A stretch of DNA of 64,000 bases from Citrus sinensis. Taxonomy: Eukaryota; Streptophyta; Magnoliopsida; Sapindales; Rutaceae. The stretch is from NCBI RefSeq assembly GCF_022201045.2, contig NC_068564.1:29231001-29295000 (forward strand). Direction: 5' to 3'. Both the position numbers and the translations under genes were made by a program. This document shows, in pieces, positions 4,677 to 60,260 of this stretch. The notes under the pieces were generated by a model, which was not told where the DNA came from, did no database searches, and worked only from the letters and a program-made list of their open reading frames with translations. Each line of letters starts with the position of its first letter. Position 1 is the first letter of the stretch.

Positions 4677-6325
4677 AAAATTGGGTGTTTGGTATAACGG
4701 AGGCAAGGTAGTTTCGTCCTTAACTATGATATATTAAGACAAATTTTATGGTTCCTAATATACCTATGAGTCTATTTGTCATATATCTTGTAAAATATTA
4801 TTAAAATAGAAATAAAGAAAGAAAGGCATTTTGTACAAAGACAGACTTGATTTTAGATGAGTCCCTTGATTCTCTCTTGGATTGGACTGATGATGTAGGA
4901 CATTTGCAATTTGCAATTCCTTTGGACAGACTTCAGACTCGACCCAACTAGAGCAACAGGCTTCAATTTTGGCCCAGATGTAATCAGATCAACTTGGTAC
5001 GCATTCAGTAACTATTTCCTGAATGATAGTATCATCTTCATAACGAAAGTGTCTTGGATATATGATTAATTAATTAATTAATTATATGTCTATGTATATG
5101 TTCTTATTAAAATTACCATCCGCTTGCTAGACATAGACAAAAACATAAAAATAAGATCGTATTATTGAGTAATTATATTACACTTGCGGTGTATCCGAAA
5201 CGACAAAACAAGAGGCCATTACCAGTACTCAGTAGCCAGAAGGGTACAGTATGGTGATATATAATAACACGTACATGTTACATATAATAAAAATAATGTT
5301 AGAGATCTTGGCATCCTCATGTACTTAATAAATAGATGTGTTGAGACTACAGTTAAAAATTAAATGTTGGTGTTTTAATTGGATTTTTGTTAAAATCTTA
5401 TTTGAATCATTAAGTGCTTGATCTCACCTGATCCAAGTCCAATTTGATTAAAATCAATCAAATTTATATTTTAGGAGAAGATAAAGCTAGTAAAGGTTGA
5501 GTTTTTTTTTTTTTTTTTTTTTTTTTGCTATTCGAGGCAGGAGGTATAGTTTAGGTGATCAAGGAAGTGAGCTAACGTAATTTGGGAGGTGAATTGAGAT
5601 GTTCTGAGTTTGGAATAATATGGAGAGATCTGCGGAGTTAATTTAGAGAGTTGACATGAGGATAATAAGAGAATTTAGGGGATAAGTTTGGTAAACTCAG
5701 GGACAACTCTAGAAATTTTATCTAAAGAGCTCAATCTAGCTCCTTTCATAACTCAGGTAAACTCATATAAAAAATGCGATCTAGACACCAAAACCATCAC
5801 AATAAAGAAGAAAATAATCATAAACAATAAAGAACACATAAGTTTTTACGCAGTTCATCCTTTTGGCTTACATCCATGAGAATAATTATCTCAAATCCAC
5901 TATGTATGAGAAGTATTATATGATTTGCTTTACAATAACAACAAAATCTTCTTAAAAGTTGTTTTTGGTGGATGATAATACGAGAGAGACATGGGTTTTA
6001 TGAAGACTAGAGAGTTTTTTAAGAGAAGAATAAAAAGCTTCTTCAAGAGAGGAGATGGCCAAAATCTTTCATGGAGCTGTAAAAATAGAGGAAGAAGAAG
6101 ATGAAGCAGCCTCTCAAGAAATCAAATATGGAAAAATCCCCTTAAGGTCAGATAGAGCAAAAGGTGGGAGAGAGAGAGAGAGAACCCCCTCAAGATTAAA
6201 CATATAAACCTTATATAAGAGTGTTCCTGAGGATATTTTGATAATTATGCACACATGACGTTCATTTAATGGCTAATCTACCTTAGGTGAGGGTATTTGA
6301 GTAATTTTATTTTGGTCCCTTGATG

Positions 6326-6333
6326 GTGACATT
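6326..6333. repeat. Target-site duplication of hAT-type element, left copy
   Basis: GTGACATT here pairs with GTGACATC at 7146-7153. One mismatch suggests an older insertion. Confidence 0.7.
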
Positions 6334-7145
6334 TAGGGATAGGCAAAACTGAACAAAAAAAAAAAATCGGTTCAATTTGATTTTTTCAATTTTGGTTCGG
6401 GATTTTTTAAGCTACAAAACTGAATAAATAAATACCAAACTGAATCGAATGGTTCGATTTGGTTTTGGATCAAAAGTTACAAAACTCAAAGCAAAACAAT
6501 ATCAATGTCGTTTTTGTAATTTCACAATATACATAGACACGCTAACGCTTGCTCCATGGCTGCACCTGCTCAATCACAAAATCGAACCCTAAGTTCCCAA
6601 CCCTTGTTGGCTGCTGCGGTGCTATTGATTGTCGACTACGACCCGCAGTGCCGCTGCCAACCACAACCTTTACTCCACCACTATCGTTACTGCCAGCCAG
6701 CCATCGGTGAGTTGCTTCTAGTTCGACGTCTATTGCTATTGTTGTTGCTATTGCTGTCACTACCAGATAATTTAACTTGTTATCTTGATGACTTTTTGAT
6801 AAGTTTCCAAGAAATTTACAAGCATTCTTTAACTTGCTAAGTTGTTGCCTTGTGTGTGTGTGTATTTGACTGTCTATTATTGATTGACAAAGTTAACAAA
6901 GTCTTAAGGTAAATTAAATTTAGGATGTTAAGCTGAACCAAAAAAAATTGATTTGTTAATTCGAATCATTATCGAAAAATCAAAATCGAGCCAAAAAAGG
7001 GACATTGAGCCAAAACTAAACCGAATTGAACTATCGGTTATGGTTCAATTTTTATTTCCCTTAAAGATCGAATGATTTTTTTTTTTTAAATTTCATACCC
7101 AAATTGAACCAAAACCAAATCGACTGAAAATGATGCCCACCCCTA
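6334..7145. mobile_element. hAT-type non-autonomous DNA transposon
   Basis: The ends form a short inverted repeat: TAGGGATAGGCA on the left and, reading inward from the right, TAGGGGTGGGCA. Flanking 8-bp copies GTGACATT (6326-6333) and GTGACATC (7146-7153) match at 7 of 8 bases, which is the target duplication size of hAT elements. Subterminal zones are rich in short GGTTCAATTT / AACCGAA-type words in both orientations, as in many plant hAT-like elements. The 285-base open frame inside is Leu/Ala/Gln-rich low-complexity sequence without transposase similarity, so the element looks non-autonomous. Confidence 0.75.
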
Positions 7146-7353
7146 GTGACATCCATGAGCTTGGGATGTAAGAAAACCTCAAAAGTCATTTTTTTATTTC
7201 CACAATTAAGCACGTGACAATCTCTCAATCTCTATTTTTTAGGGAATAGGAAGGGACAGCTGACGAGGTCCCTCCTATTACTTTACTCAAAGAATTTTCA
7301 TTCTCATGGACTCCTCATCCTAAAGAAGATATTTTCTAAGTAATATTTCGTGT

Positions 7354-7646
7354 ACTCGGCCTTTGGTCGAGTGGTCAGGATTTAGAGGGCAGCAGTTTGA
7401 ACCCCCACAAATATATTGTGTGGGTATTTCCTTCCTCAATTAAAATTGAGTGAATGTAGTCTTCTTCCTTACCCAAGAGTAAGAAGTAGACATCCCTCGA
7501 ATACTTGTGAGGGTTAAAATCTGGACAGAACTCCATTAGCATTGATGTAAGTTAGTCTCAATAATAGTCGAATTTGTAAATATCAGTTATAATCTCATAT
7601 AATATGAGTTGTAGTTGGAGTAATAGTCTCATGTAATAAAAAAAAA
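7354..7646 (+). mobile_element. tRNA-derived SINE
   Basis: A 293-bp unit is bracketed by a perfect 13-bp direct repeat TAATATTTCGTGT (7341-7353 and 7647-7659), the hallmark of target-primed insertion. Near its 5' end it has a tRNA-like A box (TGGTCGAGTGG, about 7365-7375) and a B-box-like GTTTGAACCCC about 30 bases on, an internal RNA polymerase III promoter layout. The 3' end is an A-rich tail (AATAAAAAAAAA) abutting the second repeat. The tRNA-unrelated body has no open frame. The perfect duplication suggests a fairly recent insertion. Confidence 0.85.
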
Positions 7647-7659
7647 TAATATTTCGTGT

Positions 7660-8509
7660 CAAAAACTACAAAACTATAATTTATTACTCGATTTGACTAC
7701 TGGCCAATAAATATCAAGGATGCAAATCAGATGAAGCAGAATTTTCTGTTGGATTTGGTTGAGTGTCGATTAATACAGTCGATGATGAGACAAAAGCCCA
7801 ACTAGTGATCCAAGCTGTTTCTGACGTGGCCGCTCGTTTTATTCATTTGCTTCTCTTTTAACTTCTTCAAAACCAAATTTGGGTCAATGCCACTCATCTG
7901 AAAAGTATTAATAAATTCCCAAATTCATTGAATGCCTGCGATTGCGTGAATCTGCTACATTTTTAGTAAGTGTATAATTAATTAAAAATACATGTACACT
8001 CCTACAATATTTGACCCTTTTTATTGAAAAGTCAACTTCAATCTTCATTTCCACGTCATTCCCACCTTTTTGTTTTTAACTTCACTTAAAATTAATGGCC
8101 GAACCTTTTTCATTCCGAAAGCTATTGGCAGATTTGGTTATTAACGAAGAAAAGTCAAAAGATTTTATTTACCCTCGAACCAATAATGTGTCGTCCTGTG
8201 TACTCGACCTCACGTGAGTTTTGACCTCATCGGGTTACCAGATTTTTTCCTGATCGAAAGATCAGAATCAAACGCTTTTCACGCATCTTCGGAAAGCCAC
8301 GTCGTCTCACTTCCCAGAAGCAGATATTTTGGAGCACCGATCCCCTGTTTCGCCAATCTTTCAAGTATCATGCTCTTTTCTTTTTCACATTTTCAATATA
8401 TTGCTTTAGCAAACCACTATTTAGCTCAATGATGAATATTATAGAAGTGATATTTTTTTTCTGTATATGAACAAATTTATATTACACTATTAAGTGTTAA
8501 TAAACAATA
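7660..8509. other. Intergenic, no gene seen
   Basis: Only AT-rich sequence and short frames of up to 72 codons without recognisable similarity were found between the SINE and the first Mutator-type MITE. The 9-bp TAAACAATA at 8501-8509 is the left target duplication of the next element. Confidence 0.6.
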
Positions 8510-9045
8510 AGGTAAAAGTTTATTTAGTCCCTGTATTTTAAGATTAATAATCATTTAGTCTTTGTATTTTTAAAAATTCTTCGAAATATCTCTGCCGTTA
8601 AATTATTAATACCCCTACCATTATTTTTTATTTTTTTGGCTTACTTTTACAATATTACCCTTTCGTAATAATTTTTTTATTTAGACATTAATAAAAAATA
8701 ATAATTAAATTACCAACTTAACCTGAAAAATGAAAATAAAAAAATTTATTTTAATTTTTAGTTGTCAAAAATTGTATGCAAACTATCAAGTGTGAAAATG
8801 GTACTTGCAAAAAAATTAATATAATTTTTTTAGGGTTAAATTGGTAATTTAAATATTTTCTTTTTATTAATATCTAAATAAAAAAATTATTATAAAATGA
8901 TAATATTATAAAAGTAAGCCAAAAGAAATAAAAAGTAAAGGGGTATCAATACTTTAAAGACATGAATGTTTCGAGGCATTTTAAAAAATACAGGAACTGA
9001 ATAGACATTAATCTTAAAATACAAGGATTAAATAAGCTTTTACCC
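8510..9045. mobile_element. Mutator-type MITE with long terminal inverted repeats
   Basis: This 536-bp element starts AGGTAAAAGTTTATTTAGTC and, read inward from the right end, GGGTAAAAGCTTATTTAATC. The inverted similarity continues well over 150 bp per arm; both arms carry the CTGTATTTTAAGATTAAT-like block and a TTACTTTTA block. The 9-bp direct repeat TAAACAATA at 8501-8509 and 9046-9054 is perfect, matching the 9-bp duplications made by Mutator-like transposases. The centre has no open frame. The structure implies a foldback hairpin mobilised in trans. Confidence 0.88.
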
Positions 9046-9456: not shown

Positions 9457-10039
9457 AACGTCTTGTCAAATAATATTGGTTTTAGAAGAAAAAGAACTCA
9501 ACAACAACGTTAATAATTACATCAAACACGACAACTTTTAATTATTAAAACAAGGAAAAGAAAAAAAAAACAAAACTATAAAAGAAAAATCAGAGATAAA
9601 AAACAATGAAAACTTCAAATTTTGCACTCCTCTCTTTTATTAAAAATAGATGACAGGTGGTGGCCCACGAATGGACCAACGATCAGGATTTCACCATGAT
9701 TGTCTAAGCTCACATGCATGATCGTGATGTATGGTCCCACACCCGCGAAAAAAGGAACCGTAAAAGTGATAACCTTTTCAATAAGACACGCAGCTACCTT
9801 ACATTGTGCGTGACATTATTATTAGGCAAATCATAACATAAAAAGTTAAAGTTAAAGTTAAAATTAAATGGCAGAGACGCGACAAAACTGGTTGATTCCC
9901 GCCACCAGTGCATGAGAACATAATAATAATATAGAACGTGAGAGAATTTTAGTATTTTTGTTTTACTTAAAAAATAATTCACGTAACCCGACGAAGAATT
10001 TTGCTCATCAGCCCACGCGCTAGCGCCTCCATTGCAATT
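9457..10039. other. Intergenic, no gene seen
   Basis: AT-rich spacer between the small MITE and the Pack-MULE-like element, with an imperfect GTTAAA hexamer run near 9846-9866. Positions 10031-10039 (ATTGCAATT) are the left target duplication of the next element. Confidence 0.55.
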
Positions 10040-10489
10040 GGGAAATTTACACTAATAACCATTAAAGTTTTGGTTTTTTTCATCTTAACCCCCCAAACAA
10101 ATTTCTATCAACATTAGCCATAAAACAAGCTTTGAGACCAAAATACCCCTCTCCCTCATCTCTCCCCCAACACTCCCTTTCACTCATCTCTCCCAAACCG
10201 AACCAACTCCCATCATCGGCGGCAACATCAGCCCTCGTCGGCGGTGGCTCCATCTTTCATCGACGTCCGATCTACAATCTACAACTTTCAACAAAACCTA
10301 GATTAGCCATTTTTTTTATTTTCATTAATTTCAAATGAAATTTTAGAATAATAATGGTTGTAGTTTGAGAATAATGGTGGTGGTGGTGGTGTTTGTGGTG
10401 GTTGGTGGTGTTTTGGGAGTATTGTTTTTGGATTTTTGAGTGTTGTGGGGAGGGAGGGGGGGTGGGGGGCAGCGCGGGCGCATGTGCGC

Positions 10490-10555
10490 CCCACTGTCGC
10501 ACCAATTTTGGTGCGACAGCGCCCTACTGCCGCACCAATTTGGTGCGACAGCAAG
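10490..10555. repeat. Inverted GTCGCACCAA words, relative of the satellite
   Basis: Two imperfect palindromes built from TGTCGCACCAA and TTGGTGCGACA sit side by side (ACTGTCGCACCAATTTTGG then TGCCGCACCAATTTGG). They use the same words as the main satellite but with the arms in the opposite order, so the element holds diverged dispersed units as well as the main array. Confidence 0.8.
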
Positions 10556-11207
10556 CCTCTCGCACCCTCTATTCTTTATGTTTTTGCATCCAGTTTTTCC
10601 AAATTTTGAATTTGTTGGTCTGCTTACGGGGTAAATGTCAGTAATATTGGTCTGCTTACGGTTGCTTCAAATTTTCAGGATGATATGTCTCGTAAAGACT
10701 GGAACTTGGTTAAGGTGCCGAAGAAAATTTTTAAGATACCATAAAGTGATGAATATTGTTCTATGAACGATTGGGCAGTTGAGTACTGCTCTTGGAATAA
10801 TGCAGTCAATCTTTCTTTCATGCTAAGTTTTGTTAATAAATTTTTCATAGATACTTTGAGATAATCGATAACATGAATCTTTTAATTTCTTCGGATACTG
10901 ATTCCAAATTCTGGGATTTTCTTCATCTTTCATTTGTTAGAAATTGGTGCCTGAAGCCTGAAGCCAAACGAACATATTGGCAGTTTTAAATCAAGTACCT
11001 TGGACAACCAATGATTCATTTAAAATAAATTTAAGAAAGAAAAAAAGAGAACAGTAACATATGACATCTCAAATACGGCCAAAGGTTCAAGCTACAAAAT
11101 GTGCCAAGCCATGTTGTTGAGCAAGCGTGCCTCTGGAACTTCCATCTTCATCAACTCTACTTTCTTCCAGCAAAACAATAACCAAGCAAATGCGATTAAT
11201 CCTCGAA

Positions 11208-11258
11208 TAAAACTTGGTGCGACAGGTTGCCTGTCGCACCAAGCTAAGTGCGACAGGT
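11208..11258. repeat. Isolated satellite unit (about 1.5 copies)
   Basis: One full TGCGACAGG-TTG-CCTGTCGCA unit plus half of the next lies immediately 5' of the captured F-box/LRR fragment. Preceding text (GCGATTAATCCTCGAATAAA) recurs just before the main array at about 11613-11632, so the block before the main array looks like a second copy of this junction. Confidence 0.85.
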
Positions 11259-11527
11259 TGGTTTGCAAATCGTTTTACATTACAGAATCAAAGCACTGCA
11301 AGAAACTGAAGCCTCTTCGCCAAGAGCACTTACCAGCTGTTCTCATTCGATATTCAAACACAACCCATCTTGATCTCAGTCTCTATCCACGCATAAATGA
11401 CCATTCTTTATTTGCAATATCGAAAATCACTAGCTTTACACTTCAATCTATTGATCTTTCACGTTCTTGGGGCTTTTCAAGTTCTGGGTTGCTGAGTTTG
11501 ACGTTGAGCTGTAAGAATTTGGAATGA
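11258..11527 (+). pseudogene. F-box/LRR-repeat protein fragment captured in MULE
   Basis: The open frame here reads KSFYITESKH, then KPLRQEHLPAVLIRYSNTTH, LDLSLYPRINDHSL and LQSIDLSRSWGFSSSGLL, ending SCKNLE-stop. This matches the end of the F-box and the first leucine-rich repeats of the plant F-box/LRR protein 3 type (FBL3/RAE1-like), which has ESKH..LKPLR...RYRNTTDLDL at this place. In the intact family an F-box precedes and over 500 residues of LRRs follow. Both are missing, so it cannot act as a normal SCF ubiquitin-ligase receptor. The 5' edge joins directly to one satellite unit (11216-11256). The family is identified from memory of FBL3, not a search. Confidence 0.75.
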
Positions 11528-11636
11528 TTTATGGCTTCGAAGTGACACAAAACCGAACTTGTTGAAGACTGGACCCTCTGTAGCTCGCACTTATGGAAAA
11601 GCAAAACTTGGTGCGATTAATCCTCGAATAAAACTT

Positions 11637-12085
11637 GGTGCGACAGGTGCCTGTCGCACCAAGCTAAGTGCGACAGGTTGCCTGTCGCACCAAGCTAAGT
11701 GCGACAGGTGCCTGTCGCACCAAGCTAAGTGCGACAGGTGCCTGTCGCACCAAGCTAAGTGCGACAGGTTGCCTGTCGCACCAAGCTAAGTGCGACAGGT
11801 TGCCTGTCGCTTAGCCCGGTGCGACAGGGTGCCTGGCGCACCAAGCTAAGTGCGACAGGTTGCCTGTCGCACCAGGCTAAGTGCGACAGGTTGCCTGTCG
11901 GACCAAGGTAAGTGCGACAGGTTGCCTGTCGCACCAAGCTAAGTGCGACAGGTGCCTGTCGCACCAAGCTAAGTGCGACAGGTGCCTGTCGCACCAAGCT
12001 AAGTGCGACAGGTGCCTGTCGCACCAAGTTTTTTTGCGACAGGCACCTGTCGCACCAAGTTTTTTTGCGACAGGCACCTGTCGCC
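11637..12085. repeat. Palindromic GCGACAGG satellite, 15 units
   Basis: About 15 head-to-tail copies, 30-32 bp each, follow the pattern TGCGACAGG + TG or TTG + CCTGTCGCA + CCAAGCTAAG. The two 9-base arms are reverse complements, so each unit can fold into a hairpin. The spacer also allows longer pairing between neighbouring units. One unit has lost its partner arm (about 11811-11820) and a few have single substitutions. The last two units have an altered form with T runs and a GGCACC centre. It is much more GC-rich than the surrounding DNA. Frames crossing it stay open only because of the repeat pattern. Confidence 0.92.
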
Positions 12086-12487
12086 ATATTCACCCACGAC
12101 TCAGTTCACTGAAACTCTCGAGCAAGTTCAAAAAATAACTCATGTGATGCCGATTAGTGTTGGATCCGGATAGATTATGATCAGATTTCACTTTTATCGT
12201 TGTCTTTTGCCGTCGCCGTTGGTTGATGATTAAAGAGTGGAAAGCTGCCTTTGGTTTGACGATATGTGAGAAAGAAAGTTGCTTTTGGTCTGTAAAGAAG
12301 GGTAATTTGGGGAGAAAAGCGTGTGTTTGGCTAATGTTGATAGAAAAAAGTTGAGAGGGTTAATTGTGAAAATAACAAAATTTTTATGGTTATTTTCGTA
12401 AATTTCCCATTGCAATTTGCAATTTATGATTTTTACAACTCCTTACGTCGTTAACATGTTCATGTGCTTCATGTCCTAACAATTTAC

Positions 12488-12494
12488 TATAAAT
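12488..12494 (+). promoter_or_regulatory. Putative TATA box of RFS1-like gene
   Basis: TATAAAT lies 118 bp before the chosen start codon and only 80 bp beyond the end of the Pack-MULE-like element, so the distal promoter is transposon DNA. Position and sequence fit a plant TATA box; no transcript evidence is available. Confidence 0.5.
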
Positions 12495-12611
12495 ACCCCT
12501 CAATTGTTAGCCCCTCTTCACGTCTCAAAGCACCATCATCATCATAATTGTTGTCACTGTTGTGTTATTACTTGTGTGTTTGTTTCTTTTTGTTTTAGTT
12601 ATTTTTTCAAG

Positions 12612-15600
12612 ATGACGGTTGGTGCTGGGATTAGTGTGAGTGATGGGAACTTGATGGTGAAGGGGAGCTGCGTGTTGGCGAATGTTAAAGAGAACATAGT
12701 GGTGACGCCGGCGGCCGGCGGCGCATTGGTCGATGGAGCTTTTATTGGTGTTACTTCCGATCAGCTGGGCAGTCGCCGAGTCTTTCCTGTTGGCAAACTT
12801 GAGTATGTAGAATTGATTATTTATTTATTATTGTTTCTTGAAGACATGAGTTACCAATTTGGGATGTGGGTTAAATTTTGATATGTCGTTATAATGATCT
12901 GACTAAATTAATGTGGTTGGTTGGTGGCCGCAGGGGATTGAGATTCATGTGTGTGTTTCGTTTCAAAATGTGGTGGATGACACAGAGAATGGGAAATTGT
13001 GGCCAAGATGTTCCCTTTGAGACTCAATTCTTGGTTGTTGAAGCACGGGAAGGATCTCATTTTGATGAGGGTAGTCAATATGGAGAGGAACAATCTGCAT
13101 TGTATACCGTGTTCTTGCCAATTCTTGAAGGAGATTTCAGGGCTGTTCTTCAGGGGAATGAACAAAATGAGCTGGAGATATGTTTGGAGAGCGGTATATA
13201 AAATATATGTAGAGATACATATTTCAACAATTTTTTTTTTAATCGAAATTTGAAGATTTTAAGGGCACGTTGATGGTTGTTACTTAGTTCTAGGAATTGT
13301 TTGTTGTGGGATTGCAGGTGATCCTGATGTTGATGAATTTGAAGGGAGTCATTTGGTTTTTGTGGCAGCTGGATCTGATCCTTTTGATGTAATCACTAAT
13401 GCAGTAAAGTAAGTATCAACACATCAACTTGAACTACGCATATTGATTTCCTTTTTAGATCATGTAGATTTATCAGGTTGTAAATTCAATTATTTACAGA
13501 ACTGTTGAGAGACATCTGCTGACTTTTTCCCATCGCGAGAGAAAGAAGGTAACATTTTTCGTTTCCTCTATTCTGTTTCCAGATTTCTGAATTGCAAAAT
13601 TTTATACCAAAAACACTGACATGATTTTTTAATGTTGTGATGGTTTATGGTTCAGATGCCAGACATGTTGAACTGGTTTGGCTGGTGTACATGGGATGCT
13701 TTCTACACTGATGTCACAGGAGAGGGTGTGAAGCAAGGATTAGAGAGGTATTGCTTTTTTAAATTCGGGTCCTTTTGAATCACGTGTTCTAACTTTGTCA
13801 AGGTGCTAATTATTAATTGTTGCAGCTTCGAGAAAGGCGGAATTCCTCCAAAGTTTATTATAATTGATGATGGCTGGCAATCAGTAGGTATGGATCCCAG
13901 TGGTTTTGAATTCAGAGCTGATAACACGGCCAAGTAAGCACTTAATCAGAGTTCTTTTTCAGTCTTTGTGGTATCTTCTCTTTTGTTTTCTAAAGATGCC
14001 CTTTTGCTCCTTCTCAGCTTTGCAAACAGGTTGACACATATCAAAGAGAATCACAAGTTTCAGAAAAATGGAAAAGAGGGTCAAAGAGAAGAGGACCCAG
14101 CTTTAGGACTTCGTCACATTGTCACAGAGATAAAAGAAAAACATGATCTGAAGTATGTATATGTATGGCATGCAATAACAGGCTACTGGGGGGGTGTTCG
14201 ACCTGGAGTTACTGGAATGGAACACTATGAATCGAAGATGCAATACCCTGTTTCATCACCTGGGGTTCAGTCTAATGAGCCTTGCGATGCTTTCGACAGC
14301 ATTGCAAAGAATGGACTTGGGCTTGTAAATCCAGAGAAAGTGTTCCATTTCTACGATGAGCTTCACTCATACCTTGCATCAGCTGGTATTGATGGTGTCA
14401 AAGTTGATGTCCAGAACATACTTGAAACTCTTGGGGCAGGCCATGGTGGAAGAGTGAAACTTTCTAGAAAGTACCATCAGGCATTAGAAGCCTCTATTGC
14501 TAGAAACTTCCGCAACAATGATATTATTTGTTGTATGAGTCACAACACAGATGGTTTGTACAGGTAATTCATTATATAATATTACAATCTTTTGATGAGA
14601 TTCTTAAAAGTTAAATGTTATATTGACCTTTAATATATGAATGCAGTGCAAAGAGATCAGCTGTTATAAGGGCCTCAGATGATTTCTGGCCAAGAGATCC
14701 AGCATCACACACAATTCACATTGCATCAGTTGCATACAACACCATTTTCCTTGGTGAATTTATGCAGCCAGATTGGGATATGTTTCATGTAAGCTAAAAA
14801 TTTTGATTTCTCTTTGAATTTTTAAGATTATGTTCTTAGTAGTTGGATGATAACCTTGAAATTAATTCTCATGGCAGAGTCTACACCCAATGGCTGAATA
14901 CCATGGAGCTGCTCGTGCAGTGGGAGGATGTGCCATTTATGTCAGGTATAATTTTGGATGATGGATATGTACCAGTTCATGTTCTCATTAGCCCTGTGAA
15001 TGTGTGTTTCTCATATCAATTTCTATGTCATGCAGTGACAAGCCAGGACAACATGACTTTAACCTACTGAGGAAGCTTGTACTTCCTGATGGTTCCATAC
15101 TGAGAGCCAAACTTCCTGGAAGGCCAACAAGAGATTGCTTGTTCTCTGATCCTGCTAGAGATGGAAAAAGGTAATTGCAGGAAGCCTTGCCTATTTTGGT
15201 ACTCATTTAATCATTTGCTCTGAAATAGAGTTAGTTTTTGGCTAAATGTTCTTTCGATTTTGCAGTCTTTTAAAGATATGGAATCTGAATGATTTCACTG
15301 GAGTCGTGGGGGTCTTTAACTGCCAGGGAGCTGGGTGGTGCAGAGTTGGAAAGAAGAACCTTATTCATGATGAACAACCTGGCACAACAACTGGGTTTAT
15401 TAGGGCAAAAGATGTTGATTATCTGCCAAGAGTTGCTGGTGATGAATGGACTGGTGATGCTATCGCATATTCTCATCTTGGTGGTATGTTCTGCATTCTA
15501 GTCTTGAGTGAAAGTACTTCAGAGAAATAATTGATAGCTAAGTTTTACTGATATACCTGTTACAATGCAAATTGCAGGAGAGGTAGCTTATCTTCCAAAG

Positions 15601-59505: not shown

Positions 59506-59947
59506 AGAGCAACAGTTCTGCTGCAAGTGCAGATACTATTCTTCTGCATTTAGACGACCAGACAACTGATGTTTTTTGAAAGAAAAAGCCGCAACACACA
59601 CCTCTTGTGTGCTCAGATTTTGCTGCTATACAAGCTTTGTTTATCAATAATAAAACATCTTTTTCTTTTTATCCACAACTTAAAAGATCTCAGCTTCTCC
59701 CACAAAAAGGTTGTTGCATAAAATAAAGAGCAACAGTTCGGCTGCAAGTGTAGATACTATTCTTCTGCATTTAGACGACCAGACAACTTATGTTTTTTGA
59801 AAGAAAAAGCCACAACATACACCTCTTGTGTGCTCAGATTTTGCTGCTATACAAGCTTTGTTTATCAATAATAAAAGATCTTTTTCTTTTTATCCACAAC
59901 TTAAAAGATCTCAGCTTCTCCCACAAAAAGGTTGTTGCATAACATAA
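59506..59947. repeat. 221-bp tandem duplication
   Basis: Two head-to-tail copies (59506-59726 and 59727-59947) start AGAGCAACAGTTC and match almost base for base. They differ at about seven sites, for example ACTGATG versus ACTTATG and AAACATC versus AAAGATC. Each copy holds one AATAATAAAA polyadenylation-like signal. High identity suggests a recent event. No open frame spans it. Confidence 0.93.
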
Positions 59948-60260
59948 AGACAGACAGCATTTGTGTTGAGCACAAATTGTTTTCATTTCATTCACCTCAA
60001 AAAAACAATGTAACAAGCAAAAAAAATAAAGTTTCAAAGATATGCTGCAGGGATAAACAGTTTAAAAATGTCCAGAAGAAATAAATAAAATATGAGATTA
60101 AATAACTTCTTCCTTCGGCAAGAAATCAAACTCTTCGACAATGCTTCCATTATGTAATTTCCATGTGCTCTCAGAGCCGCATCACAAGTCTAAGAAGGTA
60201 TACATTAAATTACCCATAGATCAAGGAACCCTTCAACTTCGACAGTGACGTTCTCTAATT

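Follow-up and report, generated by a model that had tools for sequence, protein, structure and literature searches.

A non-autonomous Pack-MULE of sweet orange with a palindromic array as a possible address for a DUF1985 anti-silencing protein

Pack-MULEs, reportedly described by Jiang et al. in 2004, are among the systems closest to the element considered here. For the VANDAL/VANC anti-silencing system of Arabidopsis, passages of two papers describe DUF1985 proteins that bind family-specific tandem motifs (PMC5735166, PMC10398659). Ulp1-carrying MULEs are discussed in part of a review (PMC13317346), and an excerpt of PMC9832951 counts MULE insertions among the main sources of the structural changes that sweet orange has recently undergone. 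We analysed a window of 64,000 nucleotides of the sweet orange genome (C9:29231001-29295000); positions given without a contig (C1, C2 and so on) are those of this window. Among the literature matches listed, judged by titles and abstract openings, none described the MULE family reported here or its palindromes.

Borders, copies and captured DNA of the element

We observed that window positions 10040-12408 form a 2,369-bp non-autonomous Mutator-like element (MULE) with a perfect 9-bp duplication (Table 1). The two copies of ATTGCAATT lie directly outside the element ends GGGAAATTTAC... and ...GTAAATTTCCC. The inverted ends (113 bp) are 77.4% identical across 115 alignment columns, or 82 nt at 78% according to a repeat finder, and the likeness of the left to the right end fades inward past the inverted repeats. 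Among stop-to-stop frames of at least 40 aa, judged by reading, none was transposase-like, and the two element frames submitted to Pfam matched no family. A sequence-only reading had reported perfect duplications, diverged inverted ends, a host gene fragment and a satellite inside, and no transposase, all of which were borne out. Its interpretation as a Pack-MULE also stands, on the basis of the ends, the 9-bp duplications, captured pieces with parents, the lack of a transposase frame and multiple copies. It is almost certain that 10040-12408 is a non-autonomous Pack-MULE belonging to a large MULE family.

Table 1. Features of the element and its surroundings in the window.
Feature	Positions	Strand	Remarks
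Target-site duplication, left copy	10031-10039	.	ATTGCAATT
Whole non-autonomous MULE (Pack-MULE), 2369 bp	10040-12408	.	Basis: duplication; interior at seven genome places
Left degenerate terminal inverted repeat	10040-10152	+	DUF1985 side in coding relatives
Left subterminal palindrome cluster	10494-10566	.	CTGTCGCAC / GTGCGACAG half-sites; cluster at about 420-550 in 15/16 elements
Captured piece, putative eIF5B-like gene	10562-10616	+	93% to C5:29885128-29885182 (-)
Captured piece, putative eIF5B-like gene	10626-10950	+	96% to C5:29883423-29883747 (-)
Captured piece	10951-11203	+	93% to C5:29882698-29882962 (-); ~460 bp of parent absent before it
Lone palindrome unit	11217-11256	.	Adjoins the F-box fragment
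Captured F-box/LRR piece	11258-11521	+	99.2% to C6:17482095-17482358 (-)
Captured 70-bp piece	11520-11589	+	97% to C5:37397205-37397274 (-); third locus
Palindromic 30/31-bp tandem array, right subterminal, expanded	11638-12059	.	GTGCGACAGGT(T)GCCTGTCGCACCAAGCTAA; 13.9 copies
Right degenerate terminal inverted repeat	12296-12408	-	Transposase side in coding relatives
Target-site duplication, right copy	12409-12417	.	ATTGCAATT
Neighbouring host gene, raffinose synthase / seed imbibition protein (SIP1) type, stretch seen here	12612-14567	+	PF05691, 2e-06 and 3.2e-75 (two frames)

The genome (299.7 Mb, 11 contigs) was searched with the left end (161 bp; 531 first-look candidates, 40 scored) and the right end (139 bp; 710 first-look candidates, 40 scored). 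A pattern of the outer 27 end bases, allowing at most 2 mismatches, matched 285 times forward and 309 times in reverse, compared to 0 and 0 for the reversed control. We assembled 30 complete elements, namely 16 with left and right end matches paired within 10 kb, 13 from palindrome loci (see below) and the C3 copy. Exact 9-bp duplications flanked 26 of them; three had 8 of 9 matching bases and one (L035) had 4 of 9. This confirmed the expectation that other genome copies would share these ends and duplications. The element interior was found at seven places (C9:29241040, which is the window copy, C9:27107229, C6:22065672, C4:24584598, C1:14411007, C5:32806112 and C3:45433089), each with its own, different, exact 9-bp duplication.

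We aligned the six window-type copies over their full length, leaving out the C3 copy. The window, C9:27107229, C4 and C1 copies showed zero substitutions outside the array over about 1,880 bp, with one 1-bp gap in a G run, and the C6 and C5 copies had a common set of changes. The C3 copy (C3:45433089-45447650; L027, L028) is split by an apparent LTR retrotransposon, identified by reading, whose direct repeats of 1,365 bp are 99.85% identical (2 differences). We joined the flanks of 11 elements and searched five of these for empty sites, the last one being short. One of the five, the C9:27107229 copy, gave an empty site: C9:27163480-27163713 is 100% identical to its joined flanks, joint included, and a wider alignment there is identical at 597/600 positions with a single AATTTCCTG. 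A second paralogous match of these flanks, C9:27135473-27135708, is 97% identical across the joint (581/594 in the wider alignment) and has no exact copy of AATTTCCTG. For the window copy and three others, the joined flanks matched their own flanks alone. The empty sites come from three related segments at C9:27107k, 27135k and 27163k, ~28 kb apart. Movement as a unit is indicated by the seven copies together with the paralogous empty site for the C9:27107229 copy. Since four copies lack substitutions outside the array, movement appears to have been recent despite the array, and we infer that the Pack-MULE used transposase supplied in trans.

Identifiable host parents account for the captured pieces: an F-box/LRR gene at 99.2%, an eIF5B-like gene at 93-96% and a third locus, over 70 bp, at 97%. 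Frames of the C6 parent of the F-box/LRR piece (element positions 1219-1482) matched LRR_6 (6.2e-16 and 1.6e-06), with F-box_5 below the cut-off (0.0072). Three pieces are collinear within C5:29882698-29885182 at 93-96%, and two stretches of the parent are missing between them. Frames beside the C5 parent pieces matched GTP_EFTU (8e-24) and IF-2 (1.2e-17), and we read this parent as a putative eIF5B-like gene. A diverged element, L030 (C3:45738480), has the C5 piece with an identical right junction and lacks the F-box piece; for this reason, the eIF5B-like piece was probably captured first. L030 also retains more of the parent after the first eIF5B-like piece and has the second gap in common with the window element, so that the gaps are best read as stepwise deletion. 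A spliced eIF5B-like transcript was considered as the source and rejected, as just one of the break points looks like a splice site.

Some 195 bp separate the right duplication from the probable start codon of the neighbouring raffinose synthase/SIP1-type gene. Switching of methylation at the array could, at this distance, influence the host gene. In window 12417-12612, a TATA-like CTATAAATAC (about 12487) lies ~70 bp downstream of the insertion. Elsewhere in the window, 59506-59950 contains two tandem copies of a 221-bp unit with 96% matches.

Coding relatives and DUF1985 genes

Ten elements (L029-L038), 1.7-8.4 kb in length, have ends as in the window element. Domain searches covered part of their frames. 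Transposase domains (DBD_Tnp_Mut, MULE, Transposase_mut and SWIM) were found in L032, L033 and L034, and SWIM alone in L038. The DUF1985 domain was found in L031 and L029, and Peptidase_C48 in L033 and L038; these last two elements thus combine both gene kinds, with the Peptidase_C48 and transposase domains on opposite strands. These results show a MULE family whose coding members have MuDR-type transposase domains and opposite-strand DUF1985/Ulp1-protease domains, of the Kaonashi/VANDAL type. A partner sharing the ends, which the earlier reading had proposed to look for as an autonomous element, is present in the form of coding relatives with MuDR-type transposase domains. No intact autonomous copy was identified among them; in all three with DBD and MULE domains (L032-L034), these domains lie in separate frames, for which an intron and a break are both possible.

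We searched the genome for DUF1985 and obtained 332 candidates, of which 150 were scored and all matched, many with open frames; 0 of 14 control genomes were positive. At C4:19391872-19401900, seven successive DUF1985 matches with a period of 1,607 bases and one TAA in each are a tandem array of a DUF1985 piece.

The palindromic array and its proposed role

Half-sites GTGCGACAG/CTGTCGCAC, counted with at most 1 mismatch, occur 36 times in the element compared to 0.27 expected from resampled sequence, and twice in the remaining window. Across elements, the same count ranged from 2 to 36 against 0.07-0.77 expected. Among the 16 elements picked by their ends, half-site clusters were present at the right end in 16/16 and at the left end in 15/16 (L035 has no left cluster); with the window copy and its five siblings left out, the figures were 10/10 and 9/10. 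The 500-bp flanks of the 16 elements contained 1 half-site in all. Captured host DNA was rejected as the origin of the satellite because half-sites are found at the right end of all 16 end-chosen elements, and on this distribution the array is read as belonging to the transposon family rather than to the captured cargo. The right end has 1-4 forward half-sites in L029-L038 versus 5-15 in the six window-type copies. With the palindrome common to the family's elements, this supports the suggestion made from the sequence alone that the family carries an expanded palindromic satellite.

We counted the palindrome genome-wide with at most 3 mismatches and found 262 forward and 266 reverse matches, compared to 0 and 0 for the control. 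We then took the first 20 distinct exact-palindrome loci listed, at 1.9 kb each and with window-type copies left out. All 20 contain an end of this MULE family, and 13 are complete elements of 0.97-1.6 kb with an exact duplication. These loci (L046-L065, e.g. C3:18568258-18569281) represent a second non-autonomous group, mostly 1.0-1.2 kb long, which shares these ends and has a palindromic array of its own; in one element, L061, the left end is present twice. The view of the satellite as a passive, functionless minisatellite would fit the length variation among otherwise identical copies. It would not account for a similar place near both ends in elements sharing little else, nor for family ends at 20/20 sampled palindrome loci, and we consider it very improbable.

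The array itself varies among copies. Between the C4 and C1 copies, we counted 12 substitutions in 391 bp (8 transversions) and none outside. True hypermutation was rejected as the cause of such differences, with assembly error at least as likely, and the array centres may contain assembly errors. Counting distances of 16-70 bp, same-strand half-sites are spaced 30-33 bp apart in 147/155 pairs from the 16 elements and in 149/160 from 12 short elements. This spacing is near three helical turns, though the tandem unit alone gives such spacing.

We examined the position of the half-sites relative to the genes in six coding relatives (L031-L034, L037 and L038). In 3/6, an ATG beginning MAKSES..., on the DUF1985 side, is located 551-604 from the left end, and in 3/6 an ATG beginning MDS..., on the transposase side, is located 415-460 from the right end, in each case with a half-site cluster ahead; the remaining ones have no listed ATG of that kind. 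In view of this arrangement, half-site GTGCGACAG, which precedes both start codons in the coding members, might serve the family's own DUF1985 protein as an address. Like VANC of Arabidopsis, this protein would demethylate the DNA of any copy bearing the address. The more repeats a non-autonomous copy had, the better it would compete for the protein, and the expansion of the array would be explained in this way. We lean, on a modest balance of probability, towards the array being an address for a DUF1985 anti-silencing protein; that this holds and that the element is a Pack-MULE is, jointly, only just on the favourable side of even.

Subterminal repeats of En/Spm or Ac are transposase binding sites, and the palindromes might likewise bind the transposase or an accessory protein, with more sites leading to more frequent movement of non-autonomous copies. 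Clusters near both ends of end-chosen elements (right 16/16, left 15/16) are consistent with this. However, right-end half-sites range from 1 to 15 while the ends are little changed, and they sit ~135-800 bp inside. Moreover, the distant family described below has a mid-element array between its genes with no obvious use for end recognition. We regard binding of this kind as unlikely.

The 422-nt array folds as one hairpin at -196.4 kcal/mol (DNA parameters) versus a mean of -85.4 for 100 shuffles (z -22.5). In maize, Mu killer gives rise to hairpin RNA and to siRNAs that silence a transposon family. The array could similarly yield a hairpin RNA, one long duplex, and siRNAs silencing the family, with array growth a neutral or harmful slippage; the strong predicted fold speaks for this. 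Nevertheless, such a role would leave unexplained why the same palindrome stands ahead of both genes in coding members and why the distant family carries a different palindrome at comparable positions, and the copies free of substitutions beyond the array suggest recent movement. We therefore hold a hairpin source of silencing to be quite unlikely.

To return to the DUF1985 address, we examined ~1.6 kb upstream of each of eight other DUF1985 matches, hand-picked as one per apparent score group. Tandem arrays (period 20-130, score at least 100) were present upstream in 5/8 (L066, L068, L069, L070 and L071); L067, L072 and L073 had no array of the chosen kind in this 1.6 kb. In each of the five, at least 1 array unit exceeds most of 300 shuffles in palindromicity (uncorrected p up to 0.02), and several units in L068, L069 and L071 are no more palindromic than shuffles. 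In control stretches from the window, not matched for composition, we found arrays in 3/37, of which 0/3 were palindromic. L070 has the left end of the window element's family (89%) and L071 part of that end; L068 and L069 are 75-80% identical to the family over ~80 end bases and contain 6 and 4 of its half-sites, respectively. Because L068-L071 resemble the family's own ends, L066 is the one family to provide a case for an entirely distinct palindrome.

L066 (C8:3212200-3221800, after an 8 kb extension) is a distant DUF1985 MULE whose transposase frame, of 755 aa, is open (PF10551, 1.1e-20). Compared to the window element's family, its transposase is 44% identical over 284 residues and its DUF1985 protein 38% over 95. 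Its palindrome CGACTRYAGTCG, chosen from L066's own arrays before being counted there, occurs at 15 places with at most 1 mismatch, versus 0.0 expected. In the 9.6 kb locus, these places are at 932-1170, 2921, 5161-5449 and 8797-8908, and the frames are at 1278-2027 (DUF1985) and 6082-8346 (transposase, minus strand); CGACTRYAGTCG thus precedes each of the two genes and also lies between them. It was found 0 times in 6 sequences of the window element's family, and that family's half-site occurs once in the L066 locus. Ends flanked by a 9-bp duplication were not detected at this locus.

A DUF1985 protein and family-specific tandem motifs in non-coding regions are present here, and, as far as sequence can tell, the anatomy agrees with VANDAL/VANC, except for the three of eight other DUF1985 loci without an upstream array. 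More tentatively, and at somewhat less than even probability, the genome may contain several parallel anti-silencing systems. Each DUF1985/Ulp1-type protein would read its own palindrome of ~30-bp period, probably as a dimer. Non-autonomous copies, here one carrying host gene pieces into a promoter region, would have multiplied the address and gained a larger share of the protein. Three themes that usually stand apart, MULE gene capture, Ulp1/DUF1985 MULEs and tandem-motif anti-silencing, are here joined, and the array provides a compact and well-defined DNA sequence with which to ask whether DUF1985 anti-silencing operates in another plant.

Comparison with described systems

Like CitMule of Citrus, as described in part of PMC4334395, the present family consists of plant MULEs that have degenerate ends and are flanked by 9-bp duplications. 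In contrast, a FAR1 domain is described for CitMule and DUF1985 is unnamed in that part of the text, which also lacks the string GGGAAATTT (PMC4334395); the two are set apart by description only. With Pack-MULEs, as treated in the review passages (PMC13317346), the window element shares MULE ends, 9-bp duplications, several host gene pieces, the lack of a visible transposase and insertion near the 5' side of a gene. It differs in its degenerate ends and in the long palindromic array of transposon-family origin.

Kaonashi/Ulp1 MULEs of Arabidopsis, melon, rice and grapevine, according to the same passages (PMC13317346), resemble the coding relatives, in which the same pair of ends encloses transposase domains and a gene with an Ulp1 domain. 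The window copy, however, has neither gene. In the present family, the two genes lie in opposite orientation. With regard to VANDAL/VANC, the unit here is a near-palindrome of ~30 bp, and the term "palindrome" is absent from the VANC text consulted (PMC5735166). What the two have in common, going by the passages available, is a DUF1985 protein and a fast-changing repeat number (PMC5735166, PMC10398659).
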